A stretch of DNA of 64,000 nt from contig NZ_CP036278.1 of assembly GCF_007748035.1 (NCBI RefSeq), positions 6,510,001 to 6,574,000 on the forward strand, given 5' to 3'. This DNA comes from Aeoliella mucimassa (lineage in GTDB: Bacteria; Planctomycetota; Planctomycetia; Pirellulales; Lacipirellulaceae). Every line of letters begins with the position of its first letter. The first letter of the stretch is position 1. A program made the position numbers and the translations under genes. The notes under the pieces are model-generated. The model worked only from the letters and a program-made list of their open reading frames with translations, made no database searches and was not told the DNA's origin. This document shows positions 21,427 to 30,660 of the stretch, piece after piece.

Positions 21427-21442
21427 AAGAGCAAACGCTCTT
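21427..21442 (-). terminator. Weak terminator-like hairpin after the caspase-like gene
   Basis: AAGAGC-AAAC-GCTCTT forms a 6-bp stem that overlaps the stop codon of the caspase-like gene. No run of T follows on the minus strand, so it may not terminate transcription on its own. Confidence 0.3.
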
Positions 21443-23475
21443 ACTTCGCAATGCGGCCCGCAACGAGTAGTAGCGAGGCGAGGCCTGCCATGAGCATGGC
21501 GCCGGTCGGTTCGGGGACCTGAACTGCTGCGGGGGGCGATAGTCGGCTGCCGAAGAAGGCCTTCCACTCGGTGTATTGATCGAGACCGATGTCGGTACCG
21601 GCCACGTCGTTGGGCAGCGTTCCGGCCGGTGCGCCGAAGTTGTCGCGCCATACGGTGTAGTCGCCGAGGTCCACGACACCATCGTTGTTGAAGTCGCCCG
21701 GCAGCGAAGTGAGCATGTCGCGAAAGGCTTGCTCGCCTTCGGTCATGAGTTCCAGCAGCCCCGCGGTACCAAAGTCGTCGGTCACCGCAGCGAACGCCCC
21801 CAATTCCACATCAATCGGCTCGGTCGCCCACGATCCGAATTCATCGCGTTCGTAGCCGTTGAACTGCGACCGGTGGAACCATGGGATGTGTCCGTTCGGA
21901 TTGACGCGGAGGCTGTGATTCGGATCCTTCATCGCCACGCGAGCGTCGTACATATCGGTCAGCAGTTTTTCGGAACCGTACAGTTCGTTCATTGGCGACA
22001 CACGGACCCACTCCATCAGTTCGCGAAACGAGAGTCCATCCTGATTCAAGTCGGCCATCGTGAACCCGTCCTCGGTCACCTGCAACGCACTCACCACCGC
22101 AGCGGTAAACATTCCCTGTTAGGTCTTGAAGTTCTCGGTGCCGGGAAGTTGTGTTTCCTCCACCTGAGAGAGCTTGGCAAACGATAGGGCCGTTTGATAC
22201 TCCGGCGCAGCTGCCAGCAGGGCCGTGCGTGGCAATGTCGCCAGATCGGTTGGCCCCGTAGAGCCATCCTCATGGCCATTCAAGGCAATCGCGTCCTCGC
22301 GCGAGGTCCAGAATCCACCACTATGGCAAGCGTCGAGCATAAAGACCTTGTCGACCTGTGCCCAAATCGGATCTCTGGTGAAGTACTCCGTCAAGGCGTC
22401 GTCGGACAACAAAGCATTGCGACTCAACACGAGCGCTTCGTCGCCGTTGGGCTCGCTGGATGTGCCGGTTCGCTGCACTCCATGCCCCGAATAATAGAAC
22501 ACAAAGTTATCGCCAGGTTGCAGATACTGTTTGACATTGTCGAGGCGAGCGAACACTTGCTCGCTAACCTCGGCAGTCGACTGCATGTTGTTATAGATAT
22601 TTGGCAACACATAACGGCTGTAGCTTTGCATGCCAAACGCATCCTGCATGGCTTTGACCATCGCACTTGTGTCGCGGCCGGCATCGATCGCGGTGATGTC
22701 GGGCGCGCCGAGAAAGAACCCGTGCGTGGTACCAGCATTGGCCTTGATGTTATCGACCCAGACGTTGTCGACCGTTCCTCCATTGGGATCATTGACCTCG
22801 AAGGTGACCCGATCGAGCTGATTCCAGCCCGATAGATTGACGTGCGTGTACTGCGACTCATAGCGAGGTCGCAGCCCGTTTTCCGTTTCCACTTGCGTGA
22901 TGTTGGGCAACTGGAGCGATACGGTTTTGGTCTGCAGTTCATTCCACCGCTCGGGCGAACTGGGATCCTTTGTTTTGTCTTCACGCCATCCGCGGATCGT
23001 GGCCGTCAGTGGCTCGGGATAACTGCGATAGTTACTCAACACCGGCGGGGCAATGTCGAGCGACCGCATATTAAGCCGCGGAAAATACGAAGCGGTGCTT
23101 CCCACTCTCAAACCATTGATCGGCGTGATACTCGTTGGGTCGTGCGTGCTTTGCCGCGACGCCCACTCCAAGTACGGGCGCACATCGGGAGGCGACTCGC
23201 CGCCGAACGAATTGTAGGCCTGCGAAACACTCGACGTGTAATCCCACTTGTTGTGATAGAACGGGTCGGTCCAACCAACCGGAGGTTCCCAAGTGCTGAG
23301 CGACGGGACCGCGCTAGGCGAGACATCCGACTGGCCGTATTCGTCGAATGTGACGGTTCGCGCACGTCGTCCCAGCCAATCGATCCCCAAGCGGGGGCAA
23401 TGCCGATGACCGAGAAGCTCAACACGACAAGTAGTGTCGCACCAACAACAACCGGCAGAGTGATTCGCAACTTCA
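21441..23475 (-). pseudogene. Caspase-like (peptidase C14) PEP-CTERM protein, disrupted by a frameshift and an in-frame TAA
   Basis: Most of the protein is in one frame. 22122-23360 encodes a p20 caspase fold with FVFYYSGHGVQ (catalytic His, near 22490) and VFMLDACHSGGF (catalytic Cys, near 22330). An in-frame TAA at 22119-22121 then interrupts it. The same frame continues QGMFTAAVVSALQ and DLNQDGLSFRELMEWV, which is the normal downstream part of caspase domains, then a dockerin-like GDFNNDGVVDLGDYTVWRD and a PEP-CTERM tail (VPEPTGAMLMAGLASLLLVAG). The signal peptide (LPVVVGATLLVVLSFSVIG) lies in a different frame at about 23365-23475, so a frameshift lies near 23345-23375. If intact it would be a secreted, surface-sorted caspase-like protease. 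Confidence 0.75.
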
Positions 23476-23666
23476 GGTCCCCAACATAAGATGCAGGACC
23501 GCACCCGCGGCCCGAATCGCCTATGCTAGTTACGTCCCCTGATCGGGTCAATATTTGCGAAAACAGCCTCTCCACAAGGCAATTTCCACCCCCCCGTCAG
23601 ACGGGCAGACTCGAGCCAGCGTCGGCCGCCATGTTGCTACTTGCCCAGCGGAAGTGGAGCTCCCCC
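23476..23666. other. Short intergenic region
   Basis: About 190 bases between the disrupted caspase-like gene and the terminator of the LESLEAR-motif gene. A fragment reading GRLEPASAAML on the plus strand resembles the end of a PEP-CTERM gene (compare EPASAVML at 14430) and may be a remnant. Confidence 0.3.
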
Positions 23667-28416: not shown

Positions 28417-30660
28417 GTGAAACGCAACACCTTGGTTTTCGCATCGGCCCTTTGTGGGATCGTATTCTCTTTGTTTGCTCAGCCAGTGCAGGCGAGCCGT
28501 GTGTTGATCGACTTTGGTCGCAACGACGGCGGCAATGGCTCCGAGACAGTCAGCCCCGACACGAACGGCAACTACTGGAATAACCTGAGCGGTGATTTCC
28601 AAATCGCCGACAACGTGGGCCTCGCCGATCTGGTGGATGTCGACAACGCGTCGACCGGCGTCTCGATCAACACCTTTGGCATCGCCGGGCAGAACTTCCG
28701 GGCGAATGGTCGCAACAACGGCGGTTTGCTCACTCCCGATCCCGCGTTGCTTGGCGACTTTGCCATCGGCACTGCGACCGAAGACTACTTCTTCGTCGAA
28801 GGTACCGCGAACACCAGCGCCGCGAACGACCCGTCGGGCATCACGTTCAGCGGATTGGATCCCGACGCGGTGTACGACTTCCGCTTGTTCGGCAGTCGGG
28901 CGACCACTTCGACTCGCGAGACCCGTTTCTCGGCGATCGGCGAGAACATTCAGTACGTCACGATGCTCTCCTCGGGCGTCGACATCGGAGCCGACGGTTA
29001 CGATGGCAATAACAACAACATCGTCAGCCTTACCGGCATCACCCCCGACGCGAACAACGAGATCCAACTGCTGGTGTCGGTCGTGCAAGGCAACTTCGCC
29101 TACCTGAACGTGCTGGAAGTCACCGCGACCACCAATCAGGTGCCGGAACCTTCGACCGTCGCCCTGCTCGGTCTGGCTGCAGTGGGCCTAGTGATGGTCC
29201 GCGGCGCCAAGCGTTGGCAATCGGCTTTGGCCATTGCCCTGGCTGCGGTTGCTTCGCTGACGATGGCCAACAACGCCGAAGCTCAGCCGTACCAGAACGA
29301 AGTGAATCGCTGGAATACGCAAGACGCGCTCGATCCATTGCCGCAGGACAGCATCGTGTTCGTTGGTAGCTCGAGCATCCGTCGATGGGAACAACTGACC
29401 CGCGACTTTGCCGACTACAACGTGATTCAACGCGGCATCGGCGGCGCCCTGTTCGACGACGTGAACGCTCAGGTCGGCGACCTGGTGAATAAGCACAGCC
29501 CGCGGGCGGTAGTGGTGTGGGCCGGCACAAACGACCTGGGATCAGGTTCGAATGGCCTGGAAGTACTGGACGATTACCTGGGATTCGTGAACTCGGTGCA
29601 CACGGTCGATCCGACGGTCGACATCTTCTACCTCGGCATCATGCCGACCCCCGGCCGCGAAGGCAATCGCCCACAGGAAGACATCGCGAATGGTTTGATC
29701 TCGAACTACGCTTCGAGCCACGACCACGCTTACTACATCGATCTGCCGGCCGAGTTCGACGCCTTGGGTGCTTACACCGGTTCGGATTTCCAGAACAAGT
29801 TTGTCGATGACATCCATCTGAATCGCGACGGGTACGATCTGTGGACCAGCATCGTCCGCCCACAAATCGAAGCGGTCGCCGCGCCCGACAAAGTCTACGC
29901 GCCGAACACCGCCCTGTCGGTTGGCGATAAGATTCTGTTCGACTTTGGTGCCAACGACACGACCAATGGTGAGCACACCGCGAGCCCCGACGTGAATGGC
30001 AACCACTGGAACAACTGGCACCCGCTCAACGGCGGTACCGACATCCTGCCAGGCGAGCACATTGGCAACCTGGTAAACACCGCTGGCGAAAACGTGGGCC
30101 TCGGCCTGACTATCACGGCTCAGTTCCATAACAATGGGAAGAACCATGGTGGTTTGTTCTCGCCCGATCCCGCGTTGCTCGGCGACCTGGCAGTCGAATC
30201 GGCCACGGTCGACTACTTCTTCAGCACCGGCGACGGCGTGCAAGGCGGCGGCAACGACGACATGGCCGGCGGGTTCATGATCACGGGACTCGACACCGAC
30301 TACGTGTACGACTTCCGCTTGTTCGGCACCCGGGCGACCACCGATGTTCGCAAGACAGAATACCGACTGATTGGTGCGACCGAGCACTCGGCCATTCTGC
30401 AGACCTCGGGCACCGACATCGGTTTCGATGGAATGTACGATGGCAACGACGACGAAGTGATCGAGTTCCTCAGCGTCAAACCCGATGAGTTCGGACAGAT
30501 CTTCTTCGACCAGACGTTGATCGAAGGCTCGTTTGCTTACATCGGAGCGATGGAGATCACCGTGAGCCCCGGCGACACCGGCGTTCCCGAGCCAAGCACC
30601 ATGGTGCTCGGCGCGATGGGTGCCATCGCCTTGATTGGCATCCGCAAGCTGCGTCGCTAA
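28417..30660 (+). CDS. Two-part PEP-CTERM protein with an SGNH/GDSL hydrolase domain (internal sorting signal)
   Basis: 747 residues with this order: signal peptide (1-27), domain A1 (VLIDFGRNDGGNGSETVSPD, about 28-235), a full PEP-CTERM signal at 242-267 (VPEPSTVALLGLAAVGLVMV then RGAKR), a second signal-peptide-like helix ending AEA-QP near 292, an SGNH hydrolase (FVGSSSIRRW block I, GIGGALFDD, VVWAGTNDLG, VDDIHLNRDGY block V), domain A2 (ILFDFGANDTTNGEHTASPD), and a final PEP-CTERM at 723-747. A1 and A2 are homologous. A PEP-CTERM in mid-protein is highly unusual and suggests a fusion of two exported proteins, or a polyprotein cut at both signals. The SGNH part is likely an esterase acting on carbohydrate esters. 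Confidence 0.88.
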   Translation: MKRNTLVFASALCGIVFSLFAQPVQASRVLIDFGRNDGGNGSETVSPDTNGNYWNNLSGDFQIADNVGLADLVDVDNASTGVSINTFGIAGQNFRANGRNNGGLLTPDPALLGDFAIGTATEDYFFVEGTANTSAANDPSGITFSGLDPDAVYDFRLFGSRATTSTRETRFSAIGENIQYVTMLSSGVDIGADGYDGNNNNIVSLTGITPDANNEIQLLVSVVQGNFAYLNVLEVTATTNQVPEPSTVALLGLAAVGLVMVRGAKRWQSALAIALAAVASLTMANNAEAQPYQNEVNRWNTQDALDPLPQDSIVFVGSSSIRRWEQLTRDFADYNVIQRGIGGALFDDVNAQVGDLVNKHSPRAVVVWAGTNDLGSGSNGLEVLDDYLGFVNSVHTVDPTVDIFYLGIMPTPGREGNRPQEDIANGLISNYASSHDHAYYIDLPAEFDALGAYTGSDFQNKFVDDIHLNRDGYDLWTSIVRPQIEAVAAPDKVYAPNTALSVGDKILFDFGANDTTNGEHTASPDVNGNHWNNWHPLNGGTDILPGEHIGNLVNTAGENVGLGLTITAQFHNNGKNHGGLFSPDPALLGDLAVESATVDYFFSTGDGVQGGGNDDMAGGFMITGLDTDYVYDFRLFGTRATTDVRKTEYRLIGATEHSAILQTSGTDIGFDGMYDGNDDEVIEFLSVKPDEFGQIFFDQTLIEGSFAYIGAMEITVSPGDTGVPEPSTMVLGAMGAIALIGIRKLRR

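Follow-up and report, generated by a model that had tools for sequence, protein, structure and literature searches.

Layout of the frame and its parts

In this work, a window of 64,000 nucleotides from Aeoliella mucimassa was analysed, and the frame under study was read on its plus strand at 28417-30660 (Table 1). The frame begins with GTG and continues through 747 sense codons to its sole, terminal stop. The signal peptides in all frames are predicted, being called from sequence by our own rules. Residues 1-26 make up a candidate N-terminal signal peptide, and the first gene of the corresponding pair in the congener Aeoliella straminimaris (genome G001) likewise starts with a signal-peptide-like stretch. 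Two PEP-CTERM stretches were recognised in the frame by each of the models PF07589 and TIGR02595, with best matches at residues 241-262 and 242-262, and both stretches contain the PEP motif, the hydrophobic helix and the basic cluster of the tripartite signal. The first extends from VPEP (242-245) to RGAKR (262-266) and ends 481 residues short of the chain end, so it is not C-terminal; the second, with VPEP at 723-726, is C-terminal. Another hydrophobic segment starts at W267 and was read as part of a second signal peptide with RGAKR as n-region, WQSALAIALAAVASLTMA as h-region and a c-region ending AEA. The predicted cut (AEA↓Q) lies between A289 and Q290, at window position 29284. The full-length model (mean pLDDT 66), which was used solely for placing the two helices, puts them with low confidence at residues 245-258 and 268-282.

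Table 1. Features of the frame and their coordinates in the window
Feature	Position	Strand	Basis
Entire frame (747 sense codons and the stop), with two complete export units	28417-30660	+	Reading-frame translation
Signal peptide 1 (predicted), residues 1-26, ends VQA, GTG start	28417-28494	+	Sequence
Domain A1, residues 27-241, beta-sandwich	28495-29139	+	Homology to A2, AlphaFold model
Internal PEP-CTERM, residues 242-266: VPEP, then a hydrophobic helix and RGAKR as the shared hinge	29140-29214	+	PF07589, TIGR02595, sequence
Second signal peptide (predicted), residues 262-289, predicted cut after A289	29200-29283	+	Sequence, low-confidence model helix
SGNH/GDSL hydrolase (predicted), residues 290-504	29284-29928	+	PF13472 (E 1.6e-16), motifs
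Domain A2, residues 505-722	29929-30582	+	42% identity to A1
C-terminal PEP-CTERM, residues 723-747	30583-30657	+	Pfam, genome-wide PF07589 search

The cargo between these signals is of two kinds. Lipase_GDSL_2 (PF13472) matches residues 311-475 above the Pfam cut-off, and the SGNH motifs are found with Ser in GSSSI (317), Gly in GIGGA (340), Asn in GTND (370) and Asp-His in DIHLN (465), so residues 290-504 qualify by family profile and motifs as a predicted SGNH/GDSL hydrolase. Domains A1 and A2 align with each other over 217 columns at 42% identity (E 1e-47). An earlier note on this DNA had described a 747-residue frame with a full internal PEP-CTERM, a second signal-peptide-like helix ending AEA, an SGNH hydrolase, a domain A2 homologous to A1 and a final PEP-CTERM; this layout was recovered part by part on the continuous frame, the second signal peptide as a prediction. 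The AlphaFold model of A1 (residues 28-241) has a mean pLDDT of 94.8. Carbohydrate-binding modules, a tailspike and toxin domains are among the 50 solved matches listed for its fold; assignment of a function was rejected because their TM-scores reach at most about 0.5, and the claim is therefore limited to a lectin-like beta-sandwich.

Elsewhere in the window, on the minus strand, a frame with a caspase domain (PF00656, 22119-23504) runs directly into a frame in another phase (21441-22112) that resembles its dockerin-like/PEP-CTERM end, and a frame judged by eye to be an IS110-like transposase adjoins this pair. The stretch 21441-23504 is perhaps a frameshifted PEP-CTERM caspase.

Split relatives and the origin of the fused pair

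Relatives of the frame were searched in 97 genomes, A. mucimassa itself included, and the counts of split pairs are lower bounds. The split genes that the earlier note had proposed looking for were found: at least three relatives carry the two halves as genes of their own, side by side, namely A. straminimaris, where they are 56% and 75% identical to the window frame, and the genomes G005 and G022. The gap between the two genes is 59 nt in A. straminimaris, 85-100 nt in G005, depending on the start, and 172 nt in G022. In G030, the second half is present without the first half beside it. The unit borders of the window frame coincide with these free-standing homologues, in G030 for the second half. 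Among the matches listed, the pair is fused in A. mucimassa only, and the close relatives found are split. Synteny with A. straminimaris was considered and rejected: the strong ones among the 40 best matches listed span the gene pair alone. Since the fusion was found in one genome only, the window junction is without a fused homologue for comparison.

Because the halves are adjacent but separate in at least three relatives, the window frame is most simply a fusion. The sequences are most simply read as a fused state derived in the A. mucimassa lineage, in which stop, spacer and start would have been removed, and the basic stretch that closes unit 1 would have merged with the n-region of unit 2, also basic, into one hinge. 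The earlier note had offered two alternatives, that two genes fused and lost the stop or that a polyprotein is made and cut. The split neighbours support fusion, whereas mere loss of a stop is an oversimplification, as the stop, the intergenic stretch and the start are all absent. The split neighbours with their gaps, and the occurrence of the fused pair in A. mucimassa only, would also suit a neutral fusion, that is, an uncut or partly cut membrane-bound protein tethered by a hairpin of two helices and functional enough to persist. An exact fusion found in one genome and one strain could also arise from an assembly or sequencing artefact that deleted a stop. We regard this as extremely improbable, because the genome is one contig of 6,608,792 bases described as closed, the loss covers stop, intergenic stretch and start and thus more than one base, and the same layout is seen 31 times within the genome as well as in genomes of other assemblies.

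In several relatives (L035-L039, L049), genes for A-type domains are tandem neighbours. Furthermore, Hymenobacter profundi (L176) has two A-type domains that are 46-49% identical to A1, and the Hymenobacter domains are nearer to A1 than most planctomycete copies compared, which may point to gene transfer.

Internal PEP-CTERMs in the genome and across the order

A search of the A. mucimassa genome with PF07589 gave at least 150 places (150 scored of 314 candidates), many of them in common frames. The frames around many of these places, together with the window frames, were searched again with a PEP-CTERM-only model. The earlier note had suggested a search for other frames with an internal PEP-CTERM and a second signal peptide, and such frames proved to be recurrent: of 95 frames with PEP-CTERM, 20 contain internal tags, and the tags number 94 at frame ends and 31 in internal places, although 31 of 125 cannot be taken as a rate for the whole genome because the stretches were chosen with long frames in mind. 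A further internal PEP-CTERM (PEPH), which the model overlooked, was recognised by eye in the frame at 3943306 and is matched at 3944548. Every one of the 31 internal tags is followed by a hinge with 2-8 Lys or Arg residues, in which basic residues exceed acidic ones, and then by a second hydrophobic segment. A strict signal-peptide rule holds after 22 of the 31 and fails at nine, compared with 5 hits among 4308 control windows from the same frames. AxA occurs in 23 of the 31 tails, whereas 2000 shuffles gave a mean of 14.4 and a maximum of 21. The cut sites of the junctions were picked with AxA in mind, so the columns of alignments built on them are not independent evidence for Ala at position -1. 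The internal tags are similar to the terminal ones in hydrophobicity (2.45 and 2.28) and in basic residues (3.13 and 2.94). Recoded stop codons between the units were also considered and rejected; there is no stop there and therefore nothing to recode.

A LamG-like unit family stands last in eight chains and first in one, and it has a free-standing homologue at 5619089 with 27-42% identity. By these differing places in the chains and the stand-alone copy, the export units are modular. From an uneven sampling of multi-unit frames, nine of 20 fall within 3.2-4.0 Mb (0.8 of 6.6 Mb); as a guess, this cluster is perhaps near the replication terminus.

The junction profiles A1 and A2 were run against 43 genomes in a family search and, with at most 23 candidates scored per genome, against 296 in an order search. 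Stop-free matches over at least 40 of the 48 profile positions, in frames of at least 500 residues, were counted. The suspicion that the profile merely catches ordinary PEP-CTERMs is true of partial matches (often 22-35 of the 48 positions), which are excluded by the 40-position rule. Shorter frames of G149, G253 and G277 with stop-free matches over 40-43 positions, and a match of 41 positions in G053, were left uncounted, and two 42-position matches in G681 were ordinary terminal tags when read. Qualifying matches were obtained in at least 29 of the 296 genomes of the order sample, A. mucimassa included, and these belong to eight families; in 186 of the 296 nothing matched at 1e-7, and ordinary tags account for many of the matches. 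In a phylum sample of 392 genomes with at most 17 candidates scored, the full-length stop-free matches listed from outside the order are those in G372 and G454 only. Multi-unit chains were read in these two genomes, which have only the phylum in common with A. mucimassa, and in 22 other Pirellulales genomes. All these positive genome counts are lower bounds. No full-length junction was found in nine control genomes (including Phycisphaerae, Planctomycetaceae and Verrucomicrobia), where the 42-position matches are the ordinary tags mentioned above, or in 240 Verrucomicrobiota genomes with at most 29 candidates scored in each. Matches at 1e-8 were obtained in at least 26 of the 296 Pirellulales versus 2 of the 240 Verrucomicrobiota, samples that are unmatched for the number of PEP-CTERM proteins.

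The largest chain read has ten PEP-CTERMs in a frame of 2531 residues that runs off the contig start (G068); eight are found in 2298 residues in the same genome and seven in 2427 residues in G086. The junctions of the relatives have a basic hinge in 76 of 76 cases, a second hydrophobic segment in 75 and AxA in 56, features that are partly due to selection because the profile by which the loci were mostly chosen covers the second signal peptide as well. In the one exception, a junction of G068, the examined stretch contains no second hydrophobic segment. Of the 20 junctions that lack AxA, three, which come from G086, are also without the looser small-x-Ala. Partial junction-profile (PEP-CTERM) matches were also seen in giant frames of 12608, 7330 and 4632 residues in G053 (C11:57167, C1:294542 and C13:85980).

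Junction conservation and the proposed processing

Five frames of A. straminimaris align end to end with A. mucimassa chains at 52-66% identity (62% over 1395 columns, 66% over 902, 59% over 1037, 56% over 941 and 52% over 1412). A sixth is 63% identical over 1209 columns and differs in the number of units. By comparing 13 junctions in eight best-match pairs of the two species, where orthology means best match only and two junctions are misaligned because the unit number differs, the PEP motif was found to be 90% identical (47/52), the helix 36%, the hinge 25% and the second h-region 29%. Ala at position -1 is identical in 85% (11/13), Ala at -3 in 54% (7/13), the next 30 residues in 54% and the whole frames in 54.5%. 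Fixed recognition points amid drifting hydrophobic sequence have the look of two working signals. A neutral fusion would likewise keep its hairpin tether hydrophobic and basic. However, tethering alone leaves unexplained why the PEP motif and Ala-1 are retained while the helices drift (29-36%), and it accounts neither for the AxA excess nor for the ten-unit chain, so that we consider neutral fusion unlikely, while giving it more weight than the other alternatives.

The ratio dN/dS at the junctions was calculated for tandem units of chains other than the window frame, pairs within one chain being non-independent. For 19 of the 24 pairs it lies within 0.11-0.33, comprising 0.13 for the youngest of six A. 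mucimassa pairs, 0.11-0.31 for 15 pairs of G086 and 0.14-0.33 for three of G091. The other A. mucimassa pairs, with high dS, gave 0.39-0.68 in four cases and an undefined value in one. The low values indicate that the chain junctions undergo translation and that selection acts on most of them at the protein level. This bears on internal initiation, by which unit 2 would be made from its own start (M260, or GTG/TTG) and the common frame would be an overlap. M260 followed by VRGAKRW is a good candidate signal peptide; the hinge is long in some cases, and a Met that is potentially an old start lies close to 14 of the 31 A. mucimassa junctions and 15 of the 76 from relatives. However, 17 of the 31 and 61 of the 76 junctions have no Met nearby, in a count that covers Met and leaves GTG/TTG aside; the codons of the tandem-unit junctions are mostly under protein-level selection, and because no stop closes unit 1, the joined chain would be translated all the same. 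Internal initiation thus seems to us improbable.

We hypothesize that the window frame is a two-unit secretory polyprotein and one of a recurrent Pirellulales class, a reading that we hold to be likely, with its cleavage predicted from the signals. In favour of it, fused frames of this layout are found again elsewhere in the genome and across the order, and they have been retained between species. The class itself is strongly supported, and serial secretory polyproteins are its best explanation. Thus, of the alternatives in the earlier note, the evidence suggests both, fusion from the split relatives and a polyprotein from recurrence and conservation, the cuts being predicted. A. mucimassa has a gene of the signal peptidase I family (PF10502) and genes of the exosortase family (PF09721), two of which score 197 and 187 bits, while a third match is divided into two neighbouring pieces of one 399-residue frame (G000:C1:137572-138513).

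In the proposed mechanism, each unit would be a full preprotein with a Sec signal peptide, a secreted cargo and a PEP-CTERM. Signal peptide 1 would start export, and the helix of the internal PEP-CTERM would stop transfer and leave its basic cluster in the cytoplasm. The common basic hinge would then act as the n-region of the second signal peptide, which would restart transfer; since the basic cluster of the PEP-CTERM doubles as the next n-region, the two helices are proposed to form a hairpin. At the outer face, signal peptidase I would cut after AEA (A289/Q290) and give the unit of SGNH hydrolase and A2 a free N-terminus, while exosortase would act at VPEP and release A1. What would remain in the membrane, as waste, is a hairpin of about 45 residues, and unit 2 would be sorted as usual by its C-terminal PEP-CTERM. 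We infer this topology, both cuts and the release as two proteins from the order of the signals. The SGNH hydrolase and the lectin-like domains suggest that the cargo may have a role on slime-matrix polysaccharide.

In alphavirus and flavivirus envelope polyproteins, a stop-transfer helix is directly followed by an internal signal sequence, and host signal peptidase cuts the chain. The order of helices is the same as that proposed for the PEP-CTERM chains, where it is predicted from sequence; to our knowledge, these viral polyproteins of the eukaryotic ER have no sorting-tag enzyme on the other side of the hairpin. In bacteria, the FbcH precursor of cytochrome b/c1 in Bradyrhizobium, the product of one gene, is cut at an internal signal sequence into two subunits of one complex; we know of no PEP-CTERM in it, nor of a serial arrangement. 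FbcH and the viral envelope polyproteins are the nearest mechanistic parallels known to us for the proposed chains.

PEP-CTERM signals are described, in the accessible text, as sitting near the C-terminus "virtually without exception", and the very few with long tails as possibly non-functional (Haft et al., 2006, PMC1569441). With the substrates described there, the A. mucimassa chains share the N-terminal signal peptide, the tripartite PEP-CTERM and a genomic exosortase family, but they differ in having internal PEP-CTERMs, each followed by a signal-peptide-like segment. MYXO-CTERM, as far as its description was accessible, is likewise a C-terminal tripartite tag, cut by the membrane protease myxosortase for surface display; motif and protease differ from those of PEP-CTERM (PMC11980579). 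In the literature searched, mostly without subscription journals, PEP-CTERM polyproteins were not found described, and its accessible parts gave no description of internal, tandem, multiple or fused PEP-CTERMs; for a bacterial polyprotein with signal peptidase, or a planctomycete polyprotein with signal peptide, nothing relevant was found in it.

The internal PEP-CTERMs contradict the working rule that these signals are C-terminal, and they suggest that some long planctomycete surface proteins may really be several proteins in a row. If this is true, it would be a cellular, non-viral case of serial polyprotein secretion, in which exosortase cleavage could be read on natural internal substrates with both products remaining. 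Moreover, because the same gene pair is split and fused within the genus Aeoliella, it offers an evolutionary snapshot. With some hesitation, we lean towards a general serial-secretion system in Pirellulales, in which one frame would hold 2-10 preproteins joined by a standard hairpin cassette, signal peptidase I and exosortase would provide for equal release, and chains would grow and be shuffled as neighbours fuse and entire units are duplicated in tandem.

Two observations concern silent sites in the chains. In A. mucimassa (L084, G000:C1:3722254-3726792), two neighbouring 262-residue units have near-identical cargo (dS 0.11) and junction codons with dS 0.49; judged from their sequences, an entire export unit was here duplicated in tandem and in frame. 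In the chains of G086 and G091 (L232, L233), silent-site divergence is lower in the junction than in the cargo, where both are computable, as if the junctions were kept alike by recombination.
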